From Mycoplasmatota bacterium (lineage in GTDB: Bacteria; Bacillota_I; Bacilli_A; Haloplasmatales; Haloplasmataceae): DNA of 64,000 bases. Below are positions 5,064-63,907 of the stretch, piece by piece. The number at the start of each line of letters is the position of its first letter. Position 1 is the first letter of the stretch. Location of the stretch: positions 2,177,156 to 2,241,155 of the forward strand of contig CP074573.1 of NCBI GenBank assembly GCA_018394295.1, given 5' to 3'. The notes under the pieces are model-generated. The model had not been told where the DNA came from and did no database searches. It saw only the letters and a program-made list of their open reading frames with translations. The position numbers were made by a program, and so were the translations under genes.

Positions 5064-5070
5064 AAGCATA

Positions 5071-5110
5071 AAAAAAATCCTACTGACAATTTGATTAGTA
5101 GGATTTTTTA
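5071..5110. terminator. Bidirectional terminator between coaX and the peptide array
   Basis: AAAAAATCCTACT pairs perfectly with AGTAGGATTTTTT across a 12-nt loop, giving a U run on both strands. It ends coaX from the left and the small-peptide transcript from the right. Confidence 0.9.
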
Positions 5111-5140
5111 TATAAATTTTGTTAATAGGTTATCAAGCAT
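5108..5140 (-). pseudogene. Truncated 3'-end unit of the peptide array (10 codons)
   Basis: The peptide MLDNLLTKFI starts with ATG behind a GGAG Shine-Dalgarno. Its first residues resemble the start of unit F (MTLDNLIQV), after which the reading frame ends inside the terminator stem. I read it as the 5' end of a twelfth unit whose body has been lost. A functional mini-peptide cannot be excluded. Confidence 0.4.
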
Positions 5141-5175
5141 TATTTCATCTCCATTTATTATTTTATTTAAACAAA

Positions 5176-5265
5176 TTATATTCTACGTTTATTTTTCTCC
5201 TCTATCTTCTTAATTTGTTCTTTATAACGCTCTAATTTAACCTGAAATAAATAATTTTCCATCAT
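5176..5265 (-). CDS. Array peptide, unit K (29 aa)
   Basis: The last complete unit of the array. It begins MMENYLFQVKLERYK and continues EQIKKIEEKNKRRI, preceded by GGGAGG. It keeps the core Q-V-K/R-L/I-x-x-Y-K-E-Q-I-K-K but has a changed tail: the usual KENLRK is replaced by KNKRRI. No signal peptide, no Cys. This is one of the most diverged members, whose DNA differs from unit I at many third codon positions. Function unknown. Confidence 0.8.
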   Translation of the reverse strand: MMENYLFQVKLERYKEQIKKIEEKNKRRI

Positions 5266-5292
5266 CTTTCTTTCCTCCCTTTAATTTTTTTT

Positions 5293-5382
5293 TTATTTTT
5301 TAAGATTTTCTTTTTGCTCAACTTTCTTAATTATTTCTTTATACTTATCTAATTTAACCTGAAATAAGTAAACATCCATCAT
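5293..5382 (-). CDS. Array peptide, unit J (29 aa)
   Basis: Begins MMDVYLFQVKLDKYK and continues EIIKKVEQKENLKK. The ATG pair at 5377-5382 is preferred over the ATG six bases upstream because AGGAGG is then seven bases away. Its N-terminus resembles unit K (YLFQVKL), the rest resembles the core units. Predicted single amphipathic helix with hydrophobic residues in a 3-4 spacing. Function unknown. Confidence 0.8.
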   Translation of the reverse strand: MMDVYLFQVKLDKYKEIIKKVEQKENLKK

Positions 5383-5407
5383 CTTCATCCCTCCTTTAAT
5401 ATAATAA

Positions 5408-5497
5408 TTATTTTCGAAGGTTTTCTTTTTGTTCTACTTTTTTTATTTGTTCTTTGTATTGGTCTATCCGAACTTGAATTAAGTGATCATTCATCAT
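5408..5497 (-). CDS. Array peptide, unit I (29 aa)
   Basis: Same protein as units G and H (MMNDHLIQVRID then QYKEQIKKVEQKENLRK). It differs in DNA at the last codons (CTTCGA instead of TTAAGA) and by TAA instead of TAG as the stop. Same protein from different codons is direct evidence that the reading frame is selected. GGAGGG Shine-Dalgarno. Confidence 0.85.
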   Translation of the reverse strand: MMNDHLIQVRIDQYKEQIKKVEQKENLRK

Positions 5498-5523
5498 TTC
5501 TATTCCCTCCTTTTATCTTTAAA

Positions 5524-5613
5524 CTATTTTCTTAAGTTTTCTTTTTGTTCTACTTTTTTTATTTGTTCTTTGTATTGGTCTATCCGAACTTGAATTAAGT
5601 GATCATTCATCAT
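5524..5613 (-). CDS. Array peptide, unit H (29 aa)
   Basis: DNA identical to unit G through gene and spacer, which indicates a very recent duplication or gene conversion. Starts with ATGATG behind GGAGG. Heptad-like hydrophobic positions are I7, I11, Y14, I18 and V21; the rest is Lys, Glu, Gln, Asp and Arg. Function unknown. Confidence 0.85.
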   Translation of the reverse strand: MMNDHLIQVRIDQYKEQIKKVEQKENLRK

Positions 5614-5639
5614 TTCTATTTCCTCCTTTTATCTTTAAA

Positions 5640-5729
5640 CTATTTTCTTAAGTTTTCTTTTTGTTCTACTTTTTTTATTTGTTCTTTGTATTGGTCTATC
5701 CGAACTTGAATTAAGTGATCATTCATCAT
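5640..5729 (-). CDS. Array peptide, unit G (29 aa)
   Basis: N-terminus MMNDHL, then the core IQVRIDQYKEQIKKVEQ and tail KENLRK. Identical to unit H at the DNA level. Net charge slightly positive, no membrane segment, no export signal. Function unknown. Confidence 0.85.
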   Translation of the reverse strand: MMNDHLIQVRIDQYKEQIKKVEQKENLRK

Positions 5730-5755
5730 TTCTATTTCCTCCTTTTATCTTTAAA

Positions 5756-5845
5756 CTATTTTCTTAAGTTTTCTTTTTGTTCTACTTTTTTTATTTGTTC
5801 TTTGTATTGGTCTATCCGAACCTGAATTAAGTTATCAAGCGTCAT
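5756..5845 (-). CDS. Array peptide, unit F (29 aa)
   Basis: N-terminus MTLDNL, then the same core and tail as unit G. Only the first five residues and the start context differ between F and G. The Shine-Dalgarno is GGAGGG. The first residues match the truncated mini-gene at 5108-5140. Confidence 0.85.
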   Translation of the reverse strand: MTLDNLIQVRIDQYKEQIKKVEQKENLRK

Positions 5846-5871
5846 CTTTATTCCCTCCTTTTATCTTTAAA

Positions 5872-5961
5872 CTATTTTCTTAAGTTTTCTTTTTGTTCTA
5901 CTTTTTTTATTTGTTCTTTGTATTGGTCTATTCGAACCTGAATTGAGTTTTCAAACGTCAT
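5872..5961 (-). CDS. Array peptide, unit E (29 aa)
   Basis: N-terminus MTFENS, core IQVRIDQYKEQIKKVEQ, tail KENLRK. Strong GGAGGG Shine-Dalgarno. The spacer to the next unit is the conserved 26-bp version. Function unknown. Confidence 0.85.
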   Translation of the reverse strand: MTFENSIQVRIDQYKEQIKKVEQKENLRK

Positions 5962-5987
5962 CTTTATTCCCTCCTTTTATCTTTAAA

Positions 5988-6077
5988 CTATTTTCTTAAG
6001 TTTTCTTTTTGTTCTAACTTTTTAATTTGATCTTTGTATTGGTCTATTCGAACCTGAATTGAGTTATCAAGCGTCAT
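5988..6077 (-). CDS. Array peptide, unit D (29 aa)
   Basis: N-terminus MTLDNS, core IQVRIDQYKDQIKKLEQ, tail KENLRK. Compared with E the core has E to D and V to L changes, both conservative for a helix surface and a heptad core position respectively. GGAGGG Shine-Dalgarno. Confidence 0.85.
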   Translation of the reverse strand: MTLDNSIQVRIDQYKDQIKKLEQKENLRK

Positions 6078-6103
6078 CTTTATTCCCTCCTTTTATCTTT
6101 AAA

Positions 6104-6190
6104 CTATTTTCTTAAGTTTTCTTTTTGTTCTAACTTCTTAATTTGATCTTTGTATTGGTCTAATCTAGTTTGAATTAAGCTATTATACAT
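6104..6190 (-). CDS. Array peptide, unit C (28 aa)
   Basis: First gene after the internal promoter. N-terminus MYNSL, core IQTRLDQYKDQIKKLEQ, tail KENLRK. The Shine-Dalgarno is AAGGGGTG rather than GGAGG, and the spacer upstream differs from the others, as expected for the first unit of a transcript. Confidence 0.82.
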   Translation of the reverse strand: MYNSLIQTRLDQYKDQIKKLEQKENLRK

Positions 6191-6237
6191 TTTCTTTCAC
6201 CCCTTTATATTTATCTTTATATAAGTAATTTTTTTTG

Positions 6238-6258
6238 TTTTAAACACACAATTTAAAA
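6238..6258 (-). promoter_or_regulatory. Stem-loop at the start of the internal array transcript
   Basis: TTTTAAA and TTTAAAA form a perfect 7-bp inverted repeat around a 7-nt loop, placed immediately after the -10 box at 6258-6263. The sequence differs from the inverted repeats at the other two promoters but the position is the same. Confidence 0.4.
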
Positions 6259-6286
6259 GTATATCAGTTTTTTTTAAAAATGCAAC
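6258..6286 (-). promoter_or_regulatory. Internal array promoter P3
   Basis: On the minus strand GTTGCA (or TTGCAT) precedes TATACT with a 17-bp (or 16-bp) spacer ending in CTGA. The block AAAAACTGATATACT is shared with the two upstream promoters. It would transcribe units C to K. Confidence 0.65.
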
Positions 6287-6362
6287 AGTTTTTTGTAACT
6301 TTTTTAAATATTCTTTGATGAAAATGCTTTCATAAAAATTTCCCTTTTATTACGGTGATATT

Positions 6363-6455
6363 TTACTTTCTAAGGTTCTCTTTTTGTTCTAACTTCTTAA
6401 TATTTTCTTTGTATTGTTCTAATTTAACTTGAGCTAAGTAACTATCCATTATCAT
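6363..6455 (-). CDS. Array peptide, unit B (30 aa)
   Basis: Begins MIMDSYLAQVKLEQYK, continues ENIKKLEQKENLRK. Its ATG overlaps the stop of unit A (TAATG), so the two are translationally coupled; the Shine-Dalgarno GGAGGG lies inside the end of unit A. Core Gln17 of the other units is replaced by Asn. Function unknown. Confidence 0.85.
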   Translation of the reverse strand: MIMDSYLAQVKLEQYKENIKKLEQKENLRK

Positions 6456-6562
6456 TAGTTTTCCCTCCTATTATTTCTAAGGTTTTCTTCTTTTTCTAAC
6501 TTCTTAATATTTTCTTTGTATTGGTCTAATTTAACTTGAAAGTAATCATCCATCATCATCAT
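6455..6562 (-). CDS. Array peptide, unit A (35 aa), first of the array
   Basis: Starts with four ATG codons in a row behind GGAGG, so the exact first residue is uncertain (the first or second ATG is best spaced). Then DDYFQVKLDQYKENIKKLEK, and a longer tail (EENLRN followed by NRREN). The tail codons double as the Shine-Dalgarno of unit B. Function unknown. Confidence 0.8.
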   Translation of the reverse strand: MMMMDDYFQVKLDQYKENIKKLEKEENLRNNRREN

Positions 6563-6581
6563 TTTTTCCTCCAATTAATTA

Positions 6582-6612
6582 TAATTTATTTTCTAAGTTT
6601 TTCTTTTTTTAC
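6582..6612 (-). pseudogene. Remnant of a further array unit (3' end only)
   Basis: Between P2 and unit A the minus strand reads YEVKKEKLRK then TAA. This resembles the universal unit tail (KKVEQKENLRK). No start or Shine-Dalgarno remains. It is best read as the eroded 3' end of a lost unit. Confidence 0.35.
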
Positions 6613-6623
6613 TTCATATTAAT

Positions 6624-6641
6624 GTAACAATGTTTTGTTAC
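6624..6641 (-). promoter_or_regulatory. Inverted repeat at the start of transcript P2
   Basis: GTAACAATGTTTTGTTAC, a 7-bp perfect inverted repeat with a 4-nt loop, begins about seven bases after the -10 box. It can be a repressor operator or a 5'-terminal mRNA hairpin. An identical copy lies at P1. Confidence 0.65.
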
Positions 6642-6647
6642 ACTTAT

Positions 6648-6676
6648 AGTATATCAGTTTTTTTTAAAAATACAAC
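6648..6676 (-). promoter_or_regulatory. Array promoter P2
   Basis: Minus strand GTTGTA, 17-bp spacer ending CTGA, TATACT. Nearly the same sequence as P1 and P3. It is the promoter closest to unit A. Confidence 0.65.
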
Positions 6677-6693: not shown

Positions 6694-6750
6694 TTAAATT
6701 ATTTTTAATATTATTTCCAAAATTGCACACCCGATATTCATTATATTCAT
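6694..6750 (-). CDS. Possible 18-aa hydrophobic peptide between P1 and P2
   Basis: ATG at 6750 opens MNIMNIGCAILEIILKII, a short hydrophobic and potentially membrane-active peptide, in the leader of the P1 transcript. The Shine-Dalgarno is poor, so this may be chance in AT-rich DNA. Confidence 0.2.
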   Translation of the reverse strand: MNIMNIGCAILEIILKII

Positions 6751-6791
6751 TTTTTATCAAAAGTTTCCAACTTTTTTTATTTTTTTCTAAC

Positions 6792-6809
6792 GTAACAATG
6801 TTTTGTTAC
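6792..6809 (-). promoter_or_regulatory. Inverted repeat at the start of transcript P1
   Basis: Same 18-bp GTAACAATGTTTTGTTAC as at P2, again placed just downstream of the -10 box. Confidence 0.65.
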
Positions 6810-6815
6810 AATTAT

Positions 6816-6844
6816 AGTATATCAGTTTTTATACAAAATGCAAC
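6816..6844 (-). promoter_or_regulatory. Array promoter P1 (outermost)
   Basis: Minus strand GTTGCA, 17-bp spacer ending CTGA, TATACT. The block from the -35 box to the inverted repeat is duplicated 168 bp downstream as P2. Confidence 0.65.
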
Positions 6845-63596: not shown

Positions 63597-63643
63597 CTTT
63601 TTTGTTTAATTTTATTTTATCGTTTTACCGACGACAATATAAG

Positions 63644-63672
63644 ATTTTATCACTTGTTTCCCTCATTGTCAA
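63644..63672 (-). promoter_or_regulatory. rRNA promoter b
   Basis: TTGACA, 17 bp ending GTGA, TAAAAT. Confidence 0.85.
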
Positions 63673-63720
63673 CAACTTTATTCATTTATTTTTTATGTTG
63701 TTTTAACATCGGGATTTAAG

Positions 63721-63749
63721 ATTCTATCACTGTTTTATTATTTAGTCAA
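63721..63749 (-). promoter_or_regulatory. rRNA promoter c
   Basis: TTGACT, 17 bp ending GTGA, TAGAAT. Confidence 0.8.
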
Positions 63750-63801
63750 CCACTTGTTTTTTCCAATTTCATTGATTTAAATTTTTGAAATAGCGAGATA
63801 G

Positions 63802-63830
63802 ATTGTATCACTTATATCCTATCCTGTCAA
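63802..63830 (-). promoter_or_regulatory. rRNA promoter d
   Basis: TTGACA, 17 bp ending GTGA, TACAAT. Confidence 0.85.
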
Positions 63831-63878
63831 CAACTTTACTCATTTATTTTCTTTGTTGTTTCAGTATCAGGATTTAAG

Positions 63879-63907
63879 ATTCTATCACTGTTTAATTACT
63901 TAGTCTA
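63879..63907 (-). promoter_or_regulatory. rRNA promoter e (outermost)
   Basis: TAGACT, 17 bp ending GTGA, TAGAAT. Sequence around it is a copy of the promoter c block. Confidence 0.7.

Follow-up and report, generated by a model that had tools for sequence, protein, structure and literature searches.

The locus described here raises the question of whether a row of very short ORFs encodes real peptides and, if so, what such peptides do. It lies on the minus strand of the window (the whole stretch of 64,000 nucleotides that was analysed), flanked by a CNNM/CorC gene on one side and the gene for a type III pantothenate kinase (coaX) on the other. The closest named relative of this coaX comes from a Haloplasma contractile MAG (84% identity), and the window was assigned to Haloplasma. 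Using the ORF list and translations of the window, we read eleven consecutive ORFs of 28-35 codons between 5176 and 6559, each with a Shine-Dalgarno sequence (GGAGG, GGGAGG or GGGGTG) at the proper distance. Ten of the peptides have 28-30 residues and the first has 33-35, depending on its start. All of the eleven short genes with strong ribosome sites that the initial annotation had described are therefore present, in agreement with a tblastn search of the own genome, which returned exactly these eleven copies and none elsewhere. The extent it had given, 5108-6612, was accurate in part: the genes occupy 5176-6559, but 5108-5140 holds only a truncated ORF. The peptide genes listed below were taken from the ORF reading and the remnant from the sequence.

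6455-6559, minus strand: peptide gene 1, MMMDDYFQVKLDQYKENIKKLEKEENLRNNRREN, with its start at 6556, 6559 or 6562
6363-6455, minus strand: peptide gene 2, MIMDSYLAQVKLEQYKENIKKLEQKENLRK, AlphaFold helix at residues 2-29
6104-6190, minus strand: peptide gene 3, MYNSLIQTRLDQYKDQIKKLEQKENLRK
5988-6077, minus strand: peptide gene 4, MTLDNSIQVRIDQYKDQIKKLEQKENLRK
5872-5961, minus strand: peptide gene 5, MTFENSIQVRIDQYKEQIKKVEQKENLRK
5756-5845, minus strand: peptide gene 6, MTLDNLIQVRIDQYKEQIKKVEQKENLRK
5640-5729, minus strand: peptide gene 7, MMNDHLIQVRIDQYKEQIKKVEQKENLRK
5524-5613, minus strand: peptide gene 8, peptide identical to that of gene 7
5408-5497, minus strand: peptide gene 9, peptide identical to that of gene 7
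5293-5382, minus strand: peptide gene 10, MMDVYLFQVKLDKYKEIIKKVEQKENLKK
5176-5265, minus strand: peptide gene 11, MMENYLFQVKLERYKEQIKKIEEKNKRRI
5108-5140, minus strand: truncated 10-codon ORF, MLDNLLTKFI, the last remnant of the array, running into the terminator
5070-5109, minus strand: intrinsic terminator at the end of the array (hairpin z -5.9)

Tandem Repeats Finder (TRF) reported a unit of 116 bp in 8 copies with a 91% match. This period is common to six of the units, and adjacent ones are 93-100% identical, so part of the array is a recent expansion. A separate AT-rich tandem repeat lies close to the end of the window (63640-63893, period 77, 3.3 copies, 63% match).

The array is conserved in a second Haloplasma genome (G001, read as stretch L021), which carries its own version in the same gap between CNNM/CorC and coaX, arranged as two cassettes; about nine diverged copies are intact there and one is frameshifted. 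Eight of these copies were aligned, and in the core their mean identity to those of the window is 36%; between the two genomes the flanking proteins are 79-84% identical and AddA is 66% identical. The stem TCCTAC/GTAGGA of the array terminator also closes both L021 cassettes (z -4.8 and -4.0), and short ORFs stand in L021 at the place matching the 10-codon remnant. The frameshifted unit (L021, 9060-9100) is either a MAG assembly error or a pseudogene. In another genus of the family (G004), a 33-codon ORF, MFCYDYLENLILNYKEKANIAVKKVKRLEEIRS, directly follows the CNNM gene. Its ribosome site, YKE motif and identical hydrophobic spacing make it a probable homologue of the array peptides, and its promoter has a TATAAT...ATnGGGTGT element that, in the stretches scanned, occurred otherwise only at Haloplasma peptide loci. 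A motif screen covering 1.05 Mb of the about 2.3 Mb of G004 found this one peptide only and no coaX; the contig ends shortly past the ORF, with the apparent start of a second, broken unit.

In three further family genomes (G002, G003 and G007) CNNM and coaX are separated by ~30-110 bp, and no peptide copy was seen there. G006 has a different gene between the two, and in the stretch of G005 that was read coaX is not adjacent to CNNM. Profile searches of 395 genomes of the class and 392 of the phylum (overlapping sets) found no array outside Haloplasma, returning the two Haloplasma genomes and one marginal partial match within a 138-residue frame, with a profile that also missed the G004 copy and would equally miss copies as diverged elsewhere.

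The substitutions among the copies indicate that the peptides are under purifying selection, as the initial annotation had proposed. In both Haloplasma arrays the changes are concentrated at third codon positions rather than spread equally over the codon, with omega = 0.14 within the window array and 0.22 within that of the second species. For the window copies and for the pooled set, none of 2000 column shuffles gave as few amino-acid differences as were observed; for the second species, 6 of 2000 did. The contrast between silent and replacement changes was smaller in the shifted and antisense frames than in the sense frame. One antisense frame of the window copies gave a clear but weaker contrast (pS 0.47, pN 0.13), which we regard as a reflection of the sense frame since the starts, stops and ribosome sites are all in the latter. 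Given the omega of 0.14, the shuffle test and the diverged syntenic array in a second species, the eleven ORFs are not a product of chance.

What has been retained is a pattern of hydrophobic residues along a polar chain. Relative to a central Tyr (position 0), positions -7, -3, 0, +4 and +7 are hydrophobic in 16 of 16 copies from two species (permutation p 0.00085), K+1 and E+8 are invariant in the same set along with the Tyr, and most other positions are charged or polar. The 3-4 spacing and the helical nature of the peptides had both been put forward from the sequence; the former proved invariant, and AlphaFold predicts a single helix for the product of peptide gene 2 (mean pLDDT 88.5). The invariant core spans only about two heptads (-7 to +7), and in Haloplasma the positions from +11 onward are mostly charged or polar. 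Neither a signal peptide nor Cys or a membrane helix was seen in the window copies, again as described initially, and they contain no hydrophobic stretch. The best 18-residue segments of these copies have a mean Eisenberg H of -0.17 to -0.85, and the hydrophobic moment lies inside the shuffled range for all of them; several second-species copies have a somewhat stronger one.

The claim that the peptides fit no described family also stands: searches of Pfam, NCBIfam, PHROGs, PADLOC and PDB gave no credible family match for the peptides, and Rfam gave none for the array. The PDB profile search produced chance helix matches only, at E 0.16 or worse. Searching plasmids by tblastn with the peptide returned no match. 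In phage sequences it returned five weak ones, of which four lie under AAA-ATPase or porphyrin-biosynthesis genes and one in an unannotated record. The pattern occurred in 17 viral contigs, in which nearly all profile hits were ORFs of ~290-320 residues and no array of short peptides was seen.

Upstream of and within the array we identified the following control elements.

6816-6843, minus strand: promoter P1, with -35 TTGCAT (6838-6843), a 16-nt spacer and -10 TATACT (6816-6821), from the sequence
6791-6810, minus strand: P1 operator TGTAACAAAACATTGTTACG, 5 nt past the -10, from the operator alignment
6727-6745, minus strand: second promoter-like element TATAATGAATATCGGGTGT, common to the L021 and L142 peptide loci
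6648-6675, minus strand: promoter P2, with TTGTAT, a 16-nt spacer and TATACT, from the sequence
6623-6642, minus strand: P2 operator TGTAACAAAACATTGTTACA, from the operator alignment
6258-6285, minus strand: promoter P3, with TTGCAT, a 16-nt spacer and TATACT, without an operator, from the operator alignment

P1-P3 were recognised by visual reading and by aligning promoters on the operator; a standard promoter scan flagged none of them and reported a consensus promoter-like match on the plus strand at 6184-6211. No intact peptide ORF follows the element at 6727-6745 in the window. With three promoter-like segments, two of which have an operator, the array is not one uniform operon. P3 stands before nine of the eleven genes, so the operator would control only part of the array if transcripts from P1 and P2 do not extend into these nine genes. 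L021 likewise has an internal TTGACA/TATAAT-like promoter lacking the operator, and part of the dose may therefore be constitutive.

The sequence TGTAACAAAACATTGTTAC[AG] is found right past the -10 in P1, P2 and both L021 cassette promoters. It extends well beyond the peptide loci: 18 operator promoters from five genomes and four genera (G000/G001, G003, G004, G006) were aligned, and in nearly all of them the operator lies a few bases past the -10. This position suggests repression. In the own genome and in relatives, a bactofilin-DUF4004 (yhbD)-bactofilin operon has the array operator at its leading gene, and the operator also occurs at another bactofilin gene, at ABC exporters that are not linked to the array, and at an M1-family peptidase gene (Peptidase_M1). 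A literature search with the operator sequence found nothing useful.

DUF4004 is present in five of the eight family genomes, exactly those five with promoter operators. This co-occurrence, across 8 genomes, makes YhbD a candidate repressor, and we infer that it is the best candidate to act at TGTAACAWAACATTGTTACA. Its HTH and MerR matches are sub-threshold only, a comparison with solved structures gave no credible match, and nothing useful was found on DUF4004 in the literature. In B. subtilis, yhbD lies within the bactofilin operon yhbD-yhbE-yhbF (encoding BacE and BacF) (PMC4627819), and a 2026 paper suggested from gene position that YhbD regulates this operon (PMC12837462). The family genomes resemble this arrangement in that their DUF4004 and bactofilin genes share the array operator; they differ in that no peptide array is described in B. 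subtilis and that the Haloplasma yhbD sits between two bactofilin genes.

Our preferred reading, held tentatively and at somewhat less than an even chance, is that the array encodes a soluble, cytosolic, partner-binding micro-helix made at high dose within an envelope/cytoskeleton regulon. The locus would yield many copies of a mostly charged alpha-helix of ~29 residues that remains in the cytosol and works by contact with a partner protein, against which its short 3-4 hydrophobic stripe would lie. P1 and P2 would be switched by a repressor, YhbD being the best candidate, bound at TGTAACAWAACATTGTTACA beside the -10. Because the operator also occurs at bactofilin, ABC-exporter and M1-peptidase genes, the peptide could be made as part of an envelope/cytoskeleton response. 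Its partner would most likely be a product of the regulon, with bactofilin as the first choice, or else a protein of the envelope. The tandem arrangement would increase the dose, and the copies would turn over by unequal crossing-over.

The nearest alternative, also raised initially, is that the peptides self-associate or pair with each other as short coiled-coil oligomers or a filament scaffold. The a/d-like spacing invariant in all copies and the predicted helix fit such a role, many copies would favour assembly, and by inspection the stripe of the G004 homologue reaches +14. Against this, coiled-coil cores of two heptads are rarely stable alone, and the Haloplasma core is just that long. 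A two-heptad stripe would suffice for contact but be marginal as an autonomous coiled coil, which leaves self-association doubtful, though a possibility of some weight. A dimer in the style of Rop, suggested at the same time, does not fit: Rop has about 63 residues in two helices, and the peptides share with it a small, charged, helical character but have only 28-35 residues and a single predicted helix.

A role outside the cell is unlikely. On this account the peptides would be leaderless secreted effectors or signals, similar to phenol-soluble modulins (PSMs) or leaderless bacteriocins, with the co-regulated ABC exporters taking them out of the cell and the M1 peptidase clearing them. Tandem genes for leaderless helical peptides and the operator shared with exporter and peptidase genes speak for it, but the window copies are polar and their moment unremarkable, which disfavours a lytic role and with it the earlier suggestion of a secreted peptide. 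Moreover, no immunity gene is present at the locus, and G003 has the exporter with its operator but no peptide at the locus, so the exporter need not have evolved for the peptide. Still less probable is a LEA- or hydrophilin-like role, in which the peptides would protect membranes or proteins by mass action in salt or envelope stress. Haloplasma is a halophilic genus, and a helix rich in K, E and Q at high gene dose would suit this function; the bulky hydrophobic residues kept in all copies and the invariant Y, K and E point instead to a specific contact. Finally, the high similarity of the 116-bp units might mean that the repeats function as RNA or DNA with incidental ORFs, but this is highly improbable given omega values well below 1, changes mainly in the third base of the codons, fewer amino-acid differences in both species than in almost every shuffle, and the absence of an Rfam match.

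Short leaderless peptides encoded in tandem arrays are a known kind of system, and this array is set apart by the polarity of its products and by a control site shared with bactofilin genes. The PSM-alpha locus of Staphylococcus likewise consists of tandem genes for short, leaderless, helical peptides, each with its own ribosome site. However, PSMs are hydrophobic, amphipathic and membrane-active and have a dedicated exporter, whereas the window peptides form no strongly amphipathic hydrophobic helix (by the H values and moments given above) and two of the array promoters carry the bactofilin-gene site. Leaderless bacteriocins such as aureocin A70 also comprise several peptides of ~30 residues in a row; the array differs in its low hydrophobicity and in lacking an immunity or export gene at the locus, and a leaderless bacteriocin operon was rejected with CNNM/CorC and type III pantothenate kinase as the flanking genes. 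These two genes are not RiPP-type modification enzymes; those beyond them were read at the level of ORFs. The window peptides have no hydrophobic stretch that could serve as the transmembrane peptide of a type I toxin (Fst/Ldr), and for the cis-encoded antisense RNA of such a toxin the sequence offers just the plus-strand promoter-like match at 6184-6211.

With the bactofilin-gene site at two of its promoters, the array may represent a new small-protein system linked to the cell envelope or cell shape. In the fullest form of this idea the peptides would be a new class: micro-helices, encoded in many copies, whose partner is bactofilin or else another protein of the cytoskeleton or envelope. 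They would be controlled by the repressor of the bactofilin operon, unequal crossing-over would adjust their gene dose, and the family in which they occur includes contractile cells; as a whole this is rather unlikely. The selected small-protein family has no database entry that we found, and the size of the array suggests that dose matters. Its control site, shared with bactofilins and exporters, defines a small and concrete gene set for a Haloplasma cytoskeleton/envelope regulon, and it names in YhbD (DUF4004) a repressor candidate that is testable in B. subtilis.

Two other loci were noted in passing. A stretch of ~150 bp (L070 5262-5412, that is G000:C1 ~892261-892411; also in L139 and L095) hardly varies between two Haloplasma species and another genus. 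It lies upstream of a minus-strand ybjQ-like gene, near an operator-controlled ABC exporter and ffh. No Rfam family matched it at gathering score; it could be a conserved leader that contains a short ORF (MNPPLFFYHTSPLPFTYTY...) and ends in a terminator-like hairpin. In addition, TGTAAAATTATATCGTTACA or its complement occurs in identical form five times (G000:C1:91873, 379800, 1358781, 1848064 and 2091220), which suggests a repeated element.
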